DNA of 8,080 nucleotides. It comes from a bacterium (GTDB lineage Bacteria; SM23-31; JAUVVT01). Of the stretch, positions 1,227 to 8,080 are shown piece by piece. The notes beneath the pieces were generated by a model, which saw only the letters and a list, made by a program, of their open reading frames with translations, searched no databases and was not told where the DNA came from. A program made the translations under genes and the position numbers. The stretch lies in the NCBI GenBank assembly GCA_030616165.1, contig JAUWXV010000169.1:1-8080 (forward strand), in the 5' to 3' direction. Positions within the stretch are counted from its first letter, which is position 1; every line of letters starts with the position of its first letter.

Positions 1227-1667
1227 TTATAAACCTGTTAACTGGTGAATTTTTTTAACTCTTCTTTCATGTCTACCTCCAGTTTCAAATTCAGTATTAA
1301 GCCATGCGTCTATTATCTCAAAAGCAGTCTCAGGAGACATTTGTTCACCCAAAACAATAATGTTTACATTGTTATGGGCTTTTACTGTTCGGCTTAGTTC
1401 TGGAGTACTGCAAAAAGCCGCTCTTATTCCTTTCACCTTATTTGCAACTATGGACATTCCTACTCCATTGCTGCATATTAATATTCCAAGGTCTGTATCT
1501 CCCGTTGAAACCGATTTAGCCACCATATAACCGTAATCCGGGTAATCTGAAGATTCATTTGAATTAGCACCAACATCTTTATACTTTATATTTTTTCTGT
1601 CAAAATATTTTAATATTCCCTGTTTTAATTTATAACCCCTATGGTCACTTCCTATCGAAATTACCAT
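1227..1667 (-). CDS. rpiB: Ribose-5-phosphate isomerase B (RpiB/LacAB family)
   Basis: Interconverts ribose 5-phosphate and ribulose 5-phosphate in the non-oxidative pentose phosphate pathway, in the cytosol. The protein opens with VISIGSDHRGYKLK, the family N-terminal phosphate/substrate loop. It then has SSDYPDYG, the catalytic-cysteine loop ICSNGVGMSIVANK, KGIRAAFC, the conserved His in AHNNVNIIVLG, and the C-terminal GGRHERRVKKI. Length (146-149 residues) is typical. I chose the ATG at 1667 because it gives the usual short N-terminus before GSDH. A GTG at 1676 would add three residues (MKE) and has no ribosome site; GAAGG lies just 2-3 bases before the ATG, closer than ideal. The active-site loop reads CSNG where E. 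coli and Thermotoga have CGTG. Allose-6-phosphate or lactose-pathway isomerases of the same fold are alternatives, but pairing with glyA favours the housekeeping role. Confidence 0.93.
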   Translation of the reverse strand: MVISIGSDHRGYKLKQGILKYFDRKNIKYKDVGANSNESSDYPDYGYMVAKSVSTGDTDLGILICSNGVGMSIVANKVKGIRAAFCSTPELSRTVKAHNNVNIIVLGEQMSPETAFEIIDAWLNTEFETGGRHERRVKKIHQLTGL

Positions 1668-1695
1668 TTCCTTCACTTTAAAATTGTGTTAAATA

Positions 1696-2793
1696 TTACC
1701 TGTAAATCCACTGATATACTGGATTATTAGCTTTAGTTTGATCCGGATTCATAAACCTATCTTCTTTTGTAGGCAAAGAGTTTTTAATCGCACTCATCTT
1801 TCGACTTGCAATACCAGATACATCAATATAATTTGATGCCTTCCTATACTGTTCATTAGCAAGTTCATATATGAGTTTATCATCAAACCTTATCTTTGCA
1901 AAACCTCCTCTTTTTGAAATCATATCCTCTGCACAAAACTCATACGCCTCCCCTATTCTTATGTATGCCATACCATAATTCTCATCTATTCTAATCGCCC
2001 TTGTCGCATAACTTCTTGCAGTCTCATAATTCTTTAAAATGTTATACGACTCAGAAATATCACATAAGGCTTGTGGATCATCACTATTTATTTCAAGTTT
2101 TCTACTTAATACATTTATCCTATCTTTCCATCTCTGAAGGTTGGCATAAGCATCCGATTTTACATCCAAAGCAGAAATATTTTCAGGCTCCAACGCCAAA
2201 AGTTTATCTGCCATCGAAAGCACATTAGCATTGTCATTCTCCTGGTGATATTCTATCATAAGTGCCTCAATGTATTTCCTATCATTTGGATATTTCTCGT
2301 GCAGTTTTTTATATTCCTCTATAACAGAGCCACCACTCAACTTTATGAGATTTGTCTTTTGATCCTGAAGTTCTTTACTATCAGGTTCAAGCTCTATCAA
2401 TTTATCATAAACATTAATCGCCTCCTGAATCTGGTTGTTCCAGATATAAAAGTTCTTTAATTTTGTCAAATAGTATTGTTTGTCCCCTCCAAGTTCCAGA
2501 ATCTTTTCAGCCTCCACAATAGCCTTATCAAATTCTGATTTTGCTTCATATATCCACTCCAACCTCTCATGTATATAAACATCATCTGGTACCTTCTCAA
2601 CACCCATTTCGTATACTATCTGAGCGCTGTCTGGCTCTTCTATCTCAATATAACTCTGACCAAGCTGGTTGTACATACCAGGATATCTCAATTCTTCATC
2701 ATTCTTAATTGCACTCCAATAAAAAGGGATTGCATCCTTATAATTTTTATGAGAATAATATTCATAATATGCTAAATTAAAATCCAGGTCCAC
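1696..2793 (-). repeat. Direct repeat copy A (TPR body of tandem duplication)
   Basis: This segment is homologous at nucleotide level to 3010-4104, offset by about 1.31 kb. It runs from the codons for VDLDFN to the stop codon. The intergenic DNA on either side and the first 60 codons of the genes do not share this high similarity. The nucleotide offset is exactly 1314 in the middle of the repeat. It is a gene duplication rather than a mobile element: no terminal inverted repeats or transposase are present. Confidence 0.9.
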
Positions 2794-2976
2794 CTGACGC
2801 CTCCTAATAGAATCCTGTTCCGCCTTTGAAATAACATCACCCTCTTCAGCTTTTATTACCTCTTCAGTTGTTGAAACACAACTGAAATACATCATAATAA
2901 TAAATAATATCAGTCCACAAAATATAATTGACCTGAATAAAAATATATAGTTTCTCTTTTTATTGGTCACTTTCAT
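1696..2976 (-). CDS. TPR-repeat lipoprotein, copy A of tandem pair
   Basis: Function unknown. This 426-residue protein starts at an ATG with AAGGAGG four bases upstream. A basic N-terminus (MKVTNKKR) leads into a hydrophobic segment (about 10-30) ending in YFSC, so Cys33 is a likely lipidation site, though the box is non-canonical. A charged, coil-like linker (about 35-60) follows. Eight or nine degenerate tetratricopeptide units then run to about residue 385, for example YNQLGQSYIEIEEPDSAQIV and EAINVYDKLIELEPDSKE. The last unit carries an insertion around FCAEDMISKRGG. The tail has SLPTKEDRFMNPD and ends YQWIYR, an ending I know from TPR proteins of FCB-group bacteria. It probably sits in the periplasm or on a membrane as a protein-binding scaffold. 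It lies 33 bases after its close paralogue and 19-28 bases before rpiB. Family is secure, partner unknown. Confidence 0.88.
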   Translation of the reverse strand: MKVTNKKRNYIFLFRSIIFCGLILFIIMMYFSCVSTTEEVIKAEEGDVISKAEQDSIRRRQVDLDFNLAYYEYYSHKNYKDAIPFYWSAIKNDEELRYPGMYNQLGQSYIEIEEPDSAQIVYEMGVEKVPDDVYIHERLEWIYEAKSEFDKAIVEAEKILELGGDKQYYLTKLKNFYIWNNQIQEAINVYDKLIELEPDSKELQDQKTNLIKLSGGSVIEEYKKLHEKYPNDRKYIEALMIEYHQENDNANVLSMADKLLALEPENISALDVKSDAYANLQRWKDRINVLSRKLEINSDDPQALCDISESYNILKNYETARSYATRAIRIDENYGMAYIRIGEAYEFCAEDMISKRGGFAKIRFDDKLIYELANEQYRKASNYIDVSGIASRKMSAIKNSLPTKEDRFMNPDQTKANNPVYQWIYR

Positions 2977-3009: not shown

Positions 3010-4104
3010 TTACTTGTAAATCCACTGATATTCTGGATTATTAGCTTTAGTCTGATCTGGGTTCATAAATCTATCCTCTTTTGTAGGCAAAGAGTTTTTA
3101 ATCGCACTCATCCTTCGGCTTGCAATACCTGATAAATCAGTATAATTTGATGCCTTCCTATACTGCTCATTAGCAAGTTCATATATAAGTTTATCATCAA
3201 ACCTTATTTTTGAAAATCCTCCTCTCTTTAAAATCATATCCTCTGCACAAAACTCATACGCTTCCCCTATTCTTATGTATGCCATACCATAATTCCCATC
3301 TATTCTAATCGCCCTTGTCGCATAACTTCTTGCAGTCTCATATTCCTTTAAAATGTTATACGACTCAGCAATATCACATAAGGTTTCAGGATTATCCCTC
3401 TTTATATCAAGTCTCTGCCTTAATACATTTATCCTATCTTTCCATTTCTGAAGGTTGGCATAAGCATCCGACTTCATATCCAAGGCAGAAATATTTTCAG
3501 GCTCCAACACCAAAAGTTTGTCTGCCATTGAAATTATATTAACATTGTCATTCTCCTGGTGATACTCTACCATAAGTGCCTCAATGTATTTCCTATCATT
3601 TGGATATTTCTCGTGCATCTTTTTATATTCTTCTATAATAGAGCCACCACTCAGTTTTATGAGATTTGTCTTTTGGTCTTGCAGTTCTTTATTATCTGGG
3701 CTAAGTGCTATTAATTGGTCATAAACGTTAATCGCCTCCTGAATCTGGTTGTTTCTAATATAAAGGTCTTTTAATTTTGTCAAATAGTATTGTTTGTCCC
3801 CTCCAAGTTTCAGAGTCTTTTCAGTCTCCACAATAGCCTTTTCAAATTCTGATTTTGCTTCATATATCCATTCCAATCTTTCATGTATATAAACATCATC
3901 TGGTACCTTCTCAACACCCATTTCGTATACCATCTGAGCGCTGTCTGGCTCTTCCATCTCAATATAACTCTGACCAAGCTGTCGGTACAGACCGGGATAT
4001 CTCAATTCTCTATCATTTTTTATTGCTTCCCAATAGTGTGGAATTGCATCTCTAAAATCTTTATGAGAATAATACTGGTAGGCAAAGTTAAAATCTATAT
4101 CAAC
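3010..4104 (-). repeat. Direct repeat copy B (TPR body of tandem duplication)
   Basis: Partner of the 1696-2793 repeat. Similarity is patchy: 3881-3981 matches 2567-2667 at 99 of 101 bases, whereas adjoining blocks differ at several bases in a short span. The copies differ by a one-codon indel near the start of the body (YYEYYSHK against YQYYSHK). Confidence 0.9.
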
Positions 4105-4293
4105 CTGATGCATTCTTTGCACCCTTGCAGCGGAATCTTGTGCCGCTTTAACCGCTGCAGTATCTTGTTCAACTTTTATTACCTCCTCAGTTGTTGAACC
4201 ACAACTGAAATATACCATTGAAATATATACTATCCCTATACTAATAATAACCAAACTGTATAAAAAAGATTTTTCTTTTTGTCTGATGTTCAA
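3010..4293 (-). CDS. TPR-repeat lipoprotein, copy B of tandem pair
   Basis: Function unknown. This 427-residue paralogue of the next gene has the same architecture. The basic start MNIRQKEKSF is followed by a hydrophobic segment (about 9-30) ending in VYFSC (Cys31, likely lipidated), and a charged linker rich in Ala, Gln and Asp (about 40-62). About nine TPR units cover 64-385, including YRQLGQSYIEMEEPDSAQ and EAINVYDQLIALSPDNKE. The tail has SLPTKEDRFMNPD and ends YQWIYK. By hand count, residues from VDIDFN onward are about 86% identical to copy A, while the first 60 residues match only around the lipobox (YFSC, then STTEEVIK). The start is a TTG supported by GGAGG four bases upstream; the next in-frame Met lies inside the signal segment. 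It follows the barrel gene by 64 bases with no terminator seen. Two diverging scaffolds may bind two variants of one partner; that is inference. Confidence 0.88.
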   Translation of the reverse strand: MNIRQKEKSFLYSLVIISIGIVYISMVYFSCGSTTEEVIKVEQDTAAVKAAQDSAARVQRMHQVDIDFNFAYQYYSHKDFRDAIPHYWEAIKNDRELRYPGLYRQLGQSYIEMEEPDSAQMVYEMGVEKVPDDVYIHERLEWIYEAKSEFEKAIVETEKTLKLGGDKQYYLTKLKDLYIRNNQIQEAINVYDQLIALSPDNKELQDQKTNLIKLSGGSIIEEYKKMHEKYPNDRKYIEALMVEYHQENDNVNIISMADKLLVLEPENISALDMKSDAYANLQKWKDRINVLRQRLDIKRDNPETLCDIAESYNILKEYETARSYATRAIRIDGNYGMAYIRIGEAYEFCAEDMILKRGGFSKIRFDDKLIYELANEQYRKASNYTDLSGIASRRMSAIKNSLPTKEDRFMNPDQTKANNPEYQWIYK

Positions 4294-4357: not shown

Positions 4358-5560
4358 TCATTTCTCATCTCTTGAAAACCATTTCTCATTAGAACTGAAT
4401 CCTAAACTTAATCTTACAATCCTTTCAGAAGCAAGGTCTTTATTCCCTGAACCTCGTGTACCAAATTCGATTGAAATATCTATGCGGGCGTTATTATTGT
4501 AGAAGGGCAAACCAAATCCACTGGCAATAAAATATTCTTTTATAGAAGAATTGTCTATATTTCTAATATATGGAGAATTAATGAAAAATCCAAATCTATA
4601 ACTCATCCTTTTGATATAATTGTCAAATATATTATTAGAAGGAGTGATTTCCCCTCCAAAACAAATCTTATAAGCATCTTGAACAAAATCGGCATTTGAA
4701 CCATTATATTTCAATTGACTTCCCTTGAATATGAATAAGTCAGCGCCTAAAATAGTTTTTAGATTTAATTGGTAAACCCATCCCAGACCGAAGGAATAAG
4801 GAAGATCTATATTTATTTTTGGAGAATCACCTGATGAACCATATATATGTAAATATTCGATTCTTCCATTCAATTTAGAACCAGTGGAAAAAAATCCACC
4901 GAACCTTGCATTCTCATTAATATTAAATAAAAAACCTGAAGTAAAATAATTTCCATAAAGGATTTTATCTATACTATCTTTTGTATCAGTATAATCCTTG
5001 TCATCGAAATCTATTATTGTTTTTTCTTCCAATCTTCCGAAAAGTCTGTTAACAGAAAAACCTACAGTAAGTCTTTTTAAAAGTCTCAATCCTATACCAC
5101 CTCTAACAGATGATAATCCACCATTTCCAACTAAATCAATGGAATAATCAACATTGTCTGCCCTTGAGTAAAATTCATATTCATAATCGCTAAAAGGGAA
5201 AAGGCCAGCAGATATAATAAAACCATTCCTTATTTTTATAGAAACAGAAGCACCATTGAATCGTGATAAACTAGAAGAAAGACTATTATCTTTCTGTAAA
5301 ATTCTAACACCTTCAAAAACAAAACCAGTATTAAATGATGTATCTTTTATCTCAGCAGAAATTGCAGGGTTCATTCTGTTATATGAAAGGTCATCATTAG
5401 TTGCCAGTCCTATATGTCCCATCCCAGCCGAGCGTGTATTAATAAAGTATCGAATCTCTCCTAATTTCACAGTAGAAAATATTGATTGAGAATATAGTGA
5501 TATAAATCTTATAAGCAAAAAGACAAAGCAAAATAATATAATTTTAAAAATTATTTTCAT
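4358..5560 (-). CDS. Outer-membrane beta-barrel protein, PorV/FadL-like
   Basis: Probable outer-membrane barrel of about 400 residues; substrate unknown. A signal peptide (residues 1-26, from MKIIFKIILF to LYSQS) precedes NTRSAGMGHIGLATNDD and MNPAI at about 41-67. This R-x-x-GMG...A...D...NPA pattern is typical of the PorV/UPF0164/FadL-like barrels of Bacteroidetes and relatives. The rest alternates hydrophobic and polar residues with Gly- and aromatic-rich strands. It closes with SIEFGTRGSGNKDL and RLSLGFSSNEKWF near the C-terminus, a characteristic ending of these barrels. I chose the ATG at 5560 because it gives a clean signal peptide; an ATG at 5596 would add 12 residues (MDFKLWRRKRLN). 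The gene sits between a lipoprotein gene and two TPR lipoprotein genes. Roles in transport, secretion or surface-protein anchoring all fit. No PorV-specific residue can be pointed to, so I give no symbol. Confidence 0.82.
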   Translation of the reverse strand: MKIIFKIILFCFVFLLIRFISLYSQSIFSTVKLGEIRYFINTRSAGMGHIGLATNDDLSYNRMNPAISAEIKDTSFNTGFVFEGVRILQKDNSLSSSLSRFNGASVSIKIRNGFIISAGLFPFSDYEYEFYSRADNVDYSIDLVGNGGLSSVRGGIGLRLLKRLTVGFSVNRLFGRLEEKTIIDFDDKDYTDTKDSIDKILYGNYFTSGFLFNINENARFGGFFSTGSKLNGRIEYLHIYGSSGDSPKINIDLPYSFGLGWVYQLNLKTILGADLFIFKGSQLKYNGSNADFVQDAYKICFGGEITPSNNIFDNYIKRMSYRFGFFINSPYIRNIDNSSIKEYFIASGFGLPFYNNNARIDISIEFGTRGSGNKDLASERIVRLSLGFSSNEKWFSRDEK

Positions 5561-5639
5561 ATTTAATCTTTTCCTGCGCCAAAGTTTGAAATCCATTATT
5601 TAATAAAGCAAACCTCTAAAAAAACCTGGAAAACCTATT

Positions 5640-6776
5640 TTAAAATTGTTGTTCAGTCTTGATAGCAGAATATTTTATAAGTAACTTAGTTGGTTCAATT
5701 TGACTCAGTGTATCTAAATTAAATACATATTTCCCTGCATAAGCGCCTTCATTATATGATTTAGATTTAATAATTAATCCATTATTTTGTTTTATATTTG
5801 AGACCCACTGCTGAAAAATACCGGTTATATTTATCTGTACAGTATTATCATCTATGAAATTTGAAGCTTGCTGGTTTTCAAACGAATCCCAATCAAACCC
5901 TATTTCATCAGGTTTCCAGGAAGAAGTTTCAACTCTATACGCATAAAGCCTGTCTTCGTAGTCCCCTTGAATGAAGGAATCTTCTGTTTTAAGCACCAAT
6001 TCTAAAAGAGCCATATTTATAGTAGAATTTTCCGGGATATTGATGCTGTCAAATTTTATTATTGAACGATAAATGCTTAAATCGTCGATCGTCAATTCCC
6101 CTGGATTAGGTTCAACTTTACTTTTAACCAGATGGGTGTCCATTTCTGGATATATATATACTGTATCTTCAGTAGTTCCTATATTGCCTCTTATTAGCAT
6201 GTATGGGAATCCTGAAACTTCTTTTGAAAAATACTTTTTTATAAAATCAGCATTCTTGAAACCTATCATCATTCCATAATTAGATGTAGTGTCATTATAC
6301 CATTTTTGCACTAAGTCAGGAGGAACAAGAATAGAATCAGGTTTATCCGATGTAGAATATACAGAAAATGAAACAACTTCATTTGAATTATAACTGATTT
6401 CCGGGATTTCATATTCATTCCAATCGGATGTAATTTCATAAATCAAACCTTCAAATTCACTTGAAATTTCACCTATACTCGAATGAGGAGTTAATACCAT
6501 TTGAGCAGATTTAATTGAATTAAAATCTCCTCTTGTCCTAAATTTAATTAAAATATTTGAACTATATTCATTAAATTCACCCAGTAATAACACATCCTTA
6601 CTACCAAAATATTTTTCAATCCTAATATTTTCAGATTTTGTAGGATATAAAGTCCTGGAAAATACCCAATCACCCGCTCCTATAAAAGGAAATTCATCCC
6701 CTATAATATTTTTATTGTCTGAACAATATATAATAAAAGGAATAAATAAAATTAATTTTAATATATTATTTTTCAT
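5640..6776 (-). CDS. Lipoprotein with two DNRLRE-like beta-sandwich domains
   Basis: 378 residues, function unknown. MKNNILKLILFIPFIIYC is a lipoprotein-type signal with Cys18 as likely lipid site; Tyr at -1 is unusual. The body looks like two related all-beta domains. The first (about 55-197) contains ILIKFRTRGDF, DLVQKWYNDT and PYMLIRG. The second (about 203-370) contains YRSIIKFDSINIPENSTI, ALLELVLKT, VQINITGIFQQWV, NGLIIKSKS and ends TKLLIKYS. The order of a strand with I-x-F-D/R, helper strands, then V-Q-x-W and a terminal L-I-K-Y-S is the pattern of DNRLRE/CBM96-like modules found on surface proteins and carbohydrate-active enzymes. No catalytic motif was seen. It lies 79 bases before the barrel start and 50 bases after gmhB. 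A surface or periplasmic ligand-binding partner of the barrel is plausible. The domain call is by pattern only. Confidence 0.78.
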   Translation of the reverse strand: MKNNILKLILFIPFIIYCSDNKNIIGDEFPFIGAGDWVFSRTLYPTKSENIRIEKYFGSKDVLLLGEFNEYSSNILIKFRTRGDFNSIKSAQMVLTPHSSIGEISSEFEGLIYEITSDWNEYEIPEISYNSNEVVSFSVYSTSDKPDSILVPPDLVQKWYNDTTSNYGMMIGFKNADFIKKYFSKEVSGFPYMLIRGNIGTTEDTVYIYPEMDTHLVKSKVEPNPGELTIDDLSIYRSIIKFDSINIPENSTINMALLELVLKTEDSFIQGDYEDRLYAYRVETSSWKPDEIGFDWDSFENQQASNFIDDNTVQINITGIFQQWVSNIKQNNGLIIKSKSYNEGAYAGKYVFNLDTLSQIEPTKLLIKYSAIKTEQQF

Positions 6777-6826: not shown

Positions 6827-7420
6827 TTAAATTTTATAAATCTCTTTACAGATTATTTTAGATGCTTCTAACAAATTATCAGCAACAAAATTTGGTTTTT
6901 TGTAATTATTTTCATTTATTTTTTTTATTGAATCTTTCCCAAATCCAGTCATAACAAGTATAGATTTAGCTCCAGAATTATAACCAGTTTCAATATCCGA
7001 TATCTTATCTCCTATAATAAAAGAATTACCAAGTTCTATATTAAACCTTTTTGAAGCTTTTAGAAGCATCCCTATTTTCGGCTTTCTGCAAACGCAATTT
7101 ACTCTATATCCTTCAATAATTCCTTCTAAATGATGTGGACAGTAATATATAGCATCAATATGTGCACCACCTTTCTTTAATAAATCTTTCATTTTTTTAT
7201 GGACAGAATTTACAGTTTCCTCAGTGTATAATCCTTTTGCAATACCTCCTTGATTTGTTACAATAATGACTTTTACTCCTAATTTATTAAAATTTTTTAT
7301 TGCTTCTGACGAAAACTCGTATATTGAAAATTTCTCAATATTATCAATATAACCAACTTCTTCGGAGATTGTACCATCCCTATCAAGAAATATACCAATT
7401 CCTTCTTTATTGACTGTCAA
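6827..7420 (-). CDS. gmhB: D-glycero-manno-heptose 1,7-bisphosphate phosphatase-like HAD enzyme
   Basis: HAD-superfamily cytosolic phosphatase. GmhB removes the 7-phosphate of heptose 1,7-bisphosphate on the way to ADP- or GDP-heptose for lipopolysaccharide core or S-layer glycan. In order the sequence shows IFLDRDGTISEEVGYI (motif I, nucleophile and acid/base Asp), VIIVTNQGGIAKG (motif II), the zinc loop YYCPHH...NCVCRKPKIGM (Cys-x-His and Cys-x-Cys ligands, diagnostic of GmhB) and IIGDKISDIETG (motifs III/IV). At about 197 residues it matches the family (E. coli 191). No ATG is available; of two in-frame TTGs I chose the one at 7420, eight bases after a perfect AGGAGG, over 7426, only two bases after it. 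It heads the putative operon. The histidinol-phosphatase part of HisB is the closest alternative. No other heptose gene is visible, so the exact substrate is unproven. Confidence 0.87.
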   Translation of the reverse strand: MTVNKEGIGIFLDRDGTISEEVGYIDNIEKFSIYEFSSEAIKNFNKLGVKVIIVTNQGGIAKGLYTEETVNSVHKKMKDLLKKGGAHIDAIYYCPHHLEGIIEGYRVNCVCRKPKIGMLLKASKRFNIELGNSFIIGDKISDIETGYNSGAKSILVMTGFGKDSIKKINENNYKKPNFVADNLLEASKIICKEIYKI

Positions 7421-7428
7421 ATTCAACT

Positions 7429-7484: not shown

Positions 7485-7515
7485 AAAAAAAAGTCAGGTA
7501 AATAATTAACCTGAC
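7485..7515 (-). terminator. Rho-independent terminator of the glgA-like gene
   Basis: On the minus strand GTCAGGT and ACCTGAC form a perfect 7-bp stem (7493-7515) around a 9-base AT loop, followed at once by eight T residues. It begins 34 bases after the stop codon of the glgA-like gene. The T tract is only on the minus-strand 3' side, so it acts in that direction. It separates this gene from the gmhB unit. Confidence 0.85.
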
Positions 7516-7549: not shown

Positions 7550-8080
7550 CTATTTCTGATTTCTCAAAGCAGAAGAATACATTTTTAAAAATTTTTTTGC
7601 AGTATTTTTCCATAAAAATTCTTCTTTCATACCGTTTTTCTGAATTATTCTCCATGTATTTTCTCTATTAAAGAGTTTAATAACATTTTTAAATTGCCTT
7701 AAAATTTCAGTCGAAGAATATTCTTTAATTAACAGACCATTACCAGAGTTATTCTGTGAACTAAATTCAACTATAATATCGGAAAACTCTCCCACATTTC
7801 TGACAATTGGAACAGTCCCGTACTTTAAACAGTTAAGAGGATTTATTTCATTCGGGTAATATAAGAAAGGCAGTAAAATTACATCACAGCCACCAATAAT
7901 AATGTGCATTAATTTTTCATTATCAGAAGAATAGAAACTAAAATTTTCAGGATAAAGGTTTTTATATTTTGTTAACTTTGACAATAATTTTTTTTCAATT
8001 TTCCCTGCAATAACAATTTGAAGTTTCAAGGCACTTAATTCTTTAGCAATATTTTCAATAACCTCAAAAATTCCCGAATT
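7550..8080 (-). CDS. Glycogen/starch synthase-like GT5 C-terminal part, degenerate active site, partial
   Basis: The frame is open from the right edge for 176 codons, so the start and N-terminal domain lie outside; the in-frame TTG at 8029 is not a real start. The visible part corresponds to the C-terminal Rossmann domain of GlgA (ADP-glucose to alpha-1,4-glucan). FEVIENIAKELSAL, LQIVIAGK, YPENFSFYSSDNEKLMHIII, GGCDVILLP and LKYGTVPIVR line up in order with GlgA, and NGMKEEFLWKNTAKKFLKMY matches the end. However, where GlgA has PSRFEPCGLxQLY this protein has PFLYYPNEINPLN, and TGGLAD is VGEFSD. The catalytic-site Glu (E. coli Glu377) is thus Tyr and the nucleotide-phosphate Gly pair is changed. 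The frame is intact, so this is not an obvious pseudogene. It could be an inactive or repurposed GlgA paralogue. It ends at the terminator downstream and is probably a separate transcription unit from gmhB. Confidence 0.82.
   Translation of the reverse strand, partial: NSGIFEVIENIAKELSALKLQIVIAGKIEKKLLSKLTKYKNLYPENFSFYSSDNEKLMHIIIGGCDVILLPFLYYPNEINPLNCLKYGTVPIVRNVGEFSDIIVEFSSQNNSGNGLLIKEYSSTEILRQFKNVIKLFNRENTWRIIQKNGMKEEFLWKNTAKKFLKMYSSALRNQK

Follow-up and report, generated by a model that had tools for sequence, protein, structure and literature searches.

A glycogen synthase orthologue that lacks its donor-binding residues and is probably retained for a non-catalytic function of the N-terminal domain

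Introduction

The closest described relative of the gene studied here is bacterial glycogen synthase, GlgA (CAZy GT5; structures 2qzs and 3d1j from E. coli, 1rzu from Agrobacterium). The likeness comprises homology over the full length, a predicted GT-B fold and intact orthologues at the same locus. However, the proteins described below lack the donor-pocket residues, and they conserve an N-terminal patch that is variable in ordinary GlgAs. Functions of E. coli GlgA residues are taken from published work (PMC6210743, PMC7137382). Plant STARCH SYNTHASE 5 (SS5/SSV) offers another comparison: it is a GT5-type paralogue reported to lack transferase activity that is still needed (PMC7582286). As in SS5, catalytic residues have been lost and the gene appears to be kept by selection, for which the evidence is strongest in Calditrichota relatives. 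SS5 is eukaryotic and acts in granule initiation, whereas the degenerate copy treated here is the ancestral one and has envelope genes as neighbours.

A GlgA-GT5 fragment is kept by Bacteroidetes according to a 2024 review (PMC11046441). This fragment has in common with the proteins considered here the patch I[NS]ER[RK]xxLxEVIRL ... KxAxxPxxxxQVYF and a neighbourhood of envelope genes. It consists of the N domain alone, usually encoded beside panC and BamH, whereas our gene keeps the C domain and adjoins genes for BamG, a HAD phosphatase and a DNRLRE lipoprotein. In 2025 the product of bamH was described as a subunit of BAM (PMC12611786, PMC12578637), and a homologue of BamG, the other component of this BamG/BamH extension of the BAM complex, is encoded in the cluster described below. 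A term search of these two 2025 papers gave no mention of glycogen or glgA, and a text search of the papers at hand found no bacterial GlgA pseudoenzyme.

Results

Gene content and lost residues

The window, i.e. the whole stretch of 8,080 nucleotides that was analysed, is the complete contig C156 of the window genome (G000), whose assembly comprises 343 contigs. The following features were assigned:

1227..1676, minus strand: RpiB/LacAB-type sugar-phosphate isomerase; conserved neighbour
1696..2976, minus strand: TPR protein 2, tandem paralogue; conserved cluster
3010..4293, minus strand: TPR protein 1; conserved cluster, E 1.9e-37 to the neighbour in G080
4358..5596, minus strand: BamG-like outer membrane protein; conserved neighbour, NCBIfam BamG E 6.7e-66, 223 bits against a cut-off of 250
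5640..6776, minus strand: DNRLRE-domain lipoprotein; conserved neighbour, DNRLRE E 1.2e-21
6827..7426, minus strand: HAD-IIIA phosphatase (GmhB-like); conserved neighbour, E 4.6e-66 to the neighbour in G003 and 1.6e-54 to that in G080
7485..7515, minus strand: probable intrinsic terminator, 7-bp stem GTCAGGT/ACCTGAC, 9-nt loop, T8; by eye
7550..8080, minus strand: degenerate GlgA (GT5) orthologue, C-terminal 176 aa; 5' part past the contig end
7778..7795, minus strand: VGEFSD replacing TGGLAD; alignment to GlgA
7844..7870, minus strand: PFLYYPNEI replacing P-S-x-F/Y-E-P-C-G-L, Tyr (TAC) at 7856-7858 corresponding to E. coli Glu377; alignment
8069..8080, minus strand: NSGI where SRLxxQKG has QKG, Lys305 lost; alignment

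The frame at 7550-8080 is free of stop codons and runs off the contig. NCBIfam GlgA models match it (E 4e-35), and phmmer aligns its product to the C-terminal domain of E. coli GlgA 2qzs (E 2.5e-17), placing LLPFLYYPNEI against LVPSRFEPCGL, with residues N-E at Cys379-Gly380, and RNVGEFSD against RRTGGLAD. The tyrosine at the position of Glu377 and the altered TGGLAD segment, both noticed in an earlier sequence-only reading, are borne out by this alignment. The same reading described the flanks as well kept, which is only partly true because 14 of the 34 columns conserved in at least 28 of 30 canonical GlgAs are kept in the window part. It also gave the gene its own terminator; the stem and T8 seen by eye make one probable between the GlgA and HAD genes, and a consensus scan made no call at 7485-7515, its loop limit being 8 and the loop here 9. 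The window covers the C-terminal part of the gene, and what follows on the KTGGL motif and the N-terminal patch comes from relatives. The N-terminal half was not found elsewhere in the G000 assembly, where only an intact GlgA on contig C40 was matched.

A contig scan queried with the window fragment alone returned no relatives. G001, a genome of the same family and another genus, encodes a nearly complete relative that is 54% identical and can be read for 474 residues up to the contig end. This relative has KTNIL for KTGGL, HDFRETG for HNLAYQG, VEKGAD for LNGVD, YSEYDSN for SRLxxQK, YYLNEL for YEPCGL and IGEFSD for TGGLAD; it thus shares the losses of the window copy and has in addition lost KTGGL, Arg300 and Asn246. 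Fifteen near-invariant positions are lost in both copies, with the same new residue at most of them, including E377Y, C379N, G380E and the G-to-E change in TGGL. Since the losses recur in this separate genome, an assembly error at the Tyr codon or the other motif positions was rejected. The window family has lost the donor-binding residues GG of KTGGL, Asn246, Arg300, Lys305, Glu377, Cys379 and Gly380 in a frame that is kept; Lys15, His161, Asn246, Arg300, Lys305 and Glu377 are present in all 30 ordinary GlgAs of the same alignment. As to the residues for the donor phosphates, the window copy lacks Lys305 and Glu377, Arg300 lies beyond the window, and the G001 copy lacks all three.

The family model TIGR02095 (cut-off 328.45 bits) gives 338 bits for the G001 copy and 117.9 bits for the window fragment, which is too short to pass. 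Its score is no test of catalysis, because the fully degenerate Calditrichota protein L086 scores 425 bits. Together with L087, L088, L090, L093 and L098, likewise fully degenerate and above the cut-off, L086 would automatically receive the name glycogen synthase.

The ancestral copy and the intact second GlgA

A second, fully intact GlgA is encoded in both genomes (G000:C40 and G001:C173), beside pgi and an aminotransferase gene; a canonical glgA elsewhere in the genome had been proposed as a check. G003 and G005 belong to the same class but to different families. Each has an intact GlgA as its single full-length copy detected, and genes for a HAD phosphatase and a DNRLRE lipoprotein follow it, as in the window. 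In G003 a BamG-like gene comes next; its counterpart in G005 is a truncated frame. Normal motifs in sister genomes are thus found at the level of the class, not within the family. In the tree, the intact G003 and G005 orthologues join the degenerate pair (99/99), and the second copies fall in another clade. From this synteny and tree grouping, the degenerate gene is the ancestral copy and the intact GlgA the extra one, contrary to the earlier suggestion of a fast-drifting second copy. No GlgC above the family cut-off was detected in the window genome; the best GlgC match (L058, 1495-2934 on G000:C42) is an apparent nucleotidyltransferase joined to a phosphomutase-type domain.

Recurrence in Calditrichota

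A scan of reference genomes gave one further degenerate GlgA, L079, in a Calditrichota genome. A search of Calditrichota then found the same orthologue in three states: intact, in one-copy genomes; fully degenerate with KTGGL lost (clade A); and semi-degenerate (clade B), with Arg300 replaced, Lys15 often lost, and EPCG, Glu377 and Lys305 kept. Clade B copies may be active; they are possibly enzymes with altered properties, or proteins at a less advanced point of the process seen in clade A. Their Arg300 is replaced by Lys, Ala or Asn (L099-L107, L109, L111-L114, L145, L146), and some clade B pairs are more conserved than intact second copies. The second copies read from two-copy Calditrichota genomes are intact. 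A further genome holds L160, apparently one more degenerate case.

With the motif columns left out, the tree gives three separate losses, each nested in intact relatives, the conversion having occurred independently twice in Calditrichota. Arg300, Lys305 and Glu377 are lost with different replacements in each lineage. Two GlgAs per genome accompany 16 of the 20 degenerate rows and none of the 13 intact orthologues; phylogenetically these are three events, so the association is not statistical proof, and testing it on phylogenetically independent pairs leaves only 3 to 5 pairs, too few to reach significance. For four degenerate rows no second GlgA copy was detected.

Selection and the conserved N-terminal patch

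Between the window and G001 copies, differences at codon positions 2 and 3 number 33 and 69 of 156 (p 2e-5). The dS of this pair by NG86 is 1.2, which is saturated and too high to trust, so L086 and L087 (fully degenerate, 95% identical) provide the better selection test: their dN/dS is 0.087, and the intact second GlgAs of these genomes give 0.110. Clade B pairs are constrained equally or more. The gene is thus under purifying selection rather than decaying, at least in Calditrichota, and we infer the same for the window family. In a neutral simulation about 7 stops arise already at 10% divergence; the G001 frame is open along its full length.

Constraint is unevenly distributed. Identity to the G003 orthologue is 57% in the N domain and 38% in the C domain, whereas intact pairs are similar across both domains, and in clade A the donor-binding C domain likewise changes fastest. 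The most conserved segment of the degenerate Calditrichota copies is an N-terminal patch of about 50 residues, PKYKxINERKYVLREVIRL...KSAFLPxSKVxVYF, which is beyond the window (82%; C domain, 28-38%). In ordinary GlgAs no segment is less conserved than this one (17% pairwise). The G001 copy carries the ER-x-x-x-L-x-E-V-I-R-L patch, in a part of the gene that lies outside the window. Because intact orthologues carry it too, the patch predates the loss of catalysis. The earlier reading saw selection for the fold in the C domain; this domain is the one that decays, and the kept part is the patch.

AlphaFold2 models of the G001 copy (pLDDT 89.9; Z 41.5 to E. coli GlgA 3d1j) and of L086 (93.6) predict that the GT-B fold is kept in these relatives. 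Most sequences in the input alignments were intact GlgAs, which biases the prediction towards the GlgA fold, and the models are therefore only supportive.

Stand-alone N domains and gene neighbourhood

When the N-terminal part was used as a query against 386 genomes, it recovered proteins of 256-280 residues made up of nothing but this domain; they carry the patch and lack KTGGL. They occur in all of the 57 good genomes of a class that apparently belongs to Bacteroidota, judged from its BamH and panC genes. panC was detected beside the fragment in 25 of 30 loci, and in 21 of 30 BamH follows it directly on the same strand. In this class the patch of the fragment is 82% conserved, and its C-terminal part 35%. 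In G373, G059 and G242 the stand-alone gene lies beside RodA and PBP2 genes, and downstream are genes for a DNRLRE-type lipoprotein, a BamG-like outer membrane protein and a TPR protein, in the order of the window. Neither GlgA nor GlgB was detected when looked for in G242 (98% complete, 0.9 Mb). A stand-alone fragment is also kept in a 0.5 Mb genome of the apparently Bacteroidota class (G450:C1:437188-437700, 46% identity to L164), and this retention hints at an important function. In the N-domain tree the stand-alone forms attach by long branches, with no exact position within the orthologue clade.

The family profile of the window BamG-like protein matches solved BamG (9n2d_B, E 3e-52). This protein occurs outside Bacteroidota, which suggests that BamG, as a component of the BAM extension, arose before that phylum. 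Checked for BamH, the window cluster has BamG and the DNRLRE lipoprotein, with no homology to BamH detected in the latter (hhalign probability 0.2%, a weak test with a single sequence on one side). The two tandem TPR genes of the window are close paralogues; Calditrichota and other relatives have a single TPR gene. In clade A, BamG-type genes do not adjoin the degenerate gene, and galT is kept there; in most clade A loci, and in G235 as well, galT is the immediate neighbour of the GlgA orthologue (L115-L123, L190), degenerate GlgAs included.

Discussion

The observations are best explained by a GlgA-derived pseudoenzyme kept for a non-catalytic function of its N domain, a reading that we regard as probable. 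The window protein would no longer transfer glucose from ADP-glucose, and its retention would be owed to a binding function in the N-terminal domain, with the clade-specific patch at its centre. The ancestral enzyme may have had two roles, with the arrival of a second GlgA releasing that copy from catalysis. The sequence-only reading had offered a pseudoenzyme among its options, and this option is upheld by the loss of the donor pocket, the fold predicted to be intact and purifying selection in close relatives.

More tentatively, the patch could be a cytoplasmic docking or regulatory element in an envelope task. Such a task is proposed because patch-bearing proteins adjoin genes for BamG-like, BamH, DNRLRE-lipoprotein, RodA and PBP2 proteins in several phyla. 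The GlgA-like protein itself is presumably cytoplasmic, with no obvious signal peptide, and it is from one line of evidence, the gene neighbourhood, that we infer a connection to the envelope and BAM. It is conceivable, though we would not call it probable, that a branch of GlgA turned into a cytoplasmic, non-enzymatic factor of outer-membrane or envelope assembly across Bacteroidota, Calditrichota and the window phylum by means of one N-terminal surface patch. The window gene and its relatives would then be intermediates between a working GlgA and the stand-alone fragment beside BamH.

Other explanations can be considered. A non-catalytic GlgA could bind alpha-glucan or the second GlgA and aid the start or regulation of glycogen synthesis, following the precedent of plant SSV/SS5, which without transferase activity works by glucan binding (PMC7582286). 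The acceptor residues E9, L19, Y95 and D137 are kept in nearly all degenerate rows that have the N domain (one clade B row, like several intact rows, has Glu in place of Asp137), and an intact GlgA is present in the two-copy genomes that were read. However, none of the three degenerate lineages has kept Tyr165, which stacks on glucan in E. coli (PMC6210743), and the stand-alone form persists in G242, where neither GlgA nor GlgB was detected, and in the 0.5 Mb genome. The role as a glycogen regulator that had been suggested earlier is weakened by these stand-alone forms, and we consider it rather unlikely.

A glycosyltransferase using a different donor or acceptor, also raised before, would fit the predicted retention of the fold, the presence of His161 in G001 and most clade A rows, and the example of GlgM, a GlgA-like GT-B enzyme with a changed acceptor (PMC7137382). 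Yet Arg300, Lys305 and Glu377, the donor-phosphate residues kept even in GlgM (PMC7137382), are lost, their replacements differ by lineage, constraint is weakest in the C domain and some relatives have no C domain at all, which makes a changed transferase improbable. A redundant copy under relaxed selection and heading for loss would account for the decay of the C domain and for the identity of 53% in the window pair, against 76% over the same columns in the intact pair of the same genomes. Against such a functionless copy stand the full-length open frame in G001, the codon-position bias, the conservation of the patch and the low dN/dS of the comparable Calditrichota pair, and we regard it as very improbable.

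The non-catalytic GlgA orthologues described here would be a bacterial case in which a metabolic enzyme became a pseudoenzyme repeatedly and independently, with intact sisters for comparison. They also carry a warning, in that the curated model TIGR02095 gives fully degenerate copies the name glycogen synthase. With the retained function pointed to a precise patch, the puzzle of why Bacteroidota keep a GlgA fragment, often directly before bamH, becomes testable.
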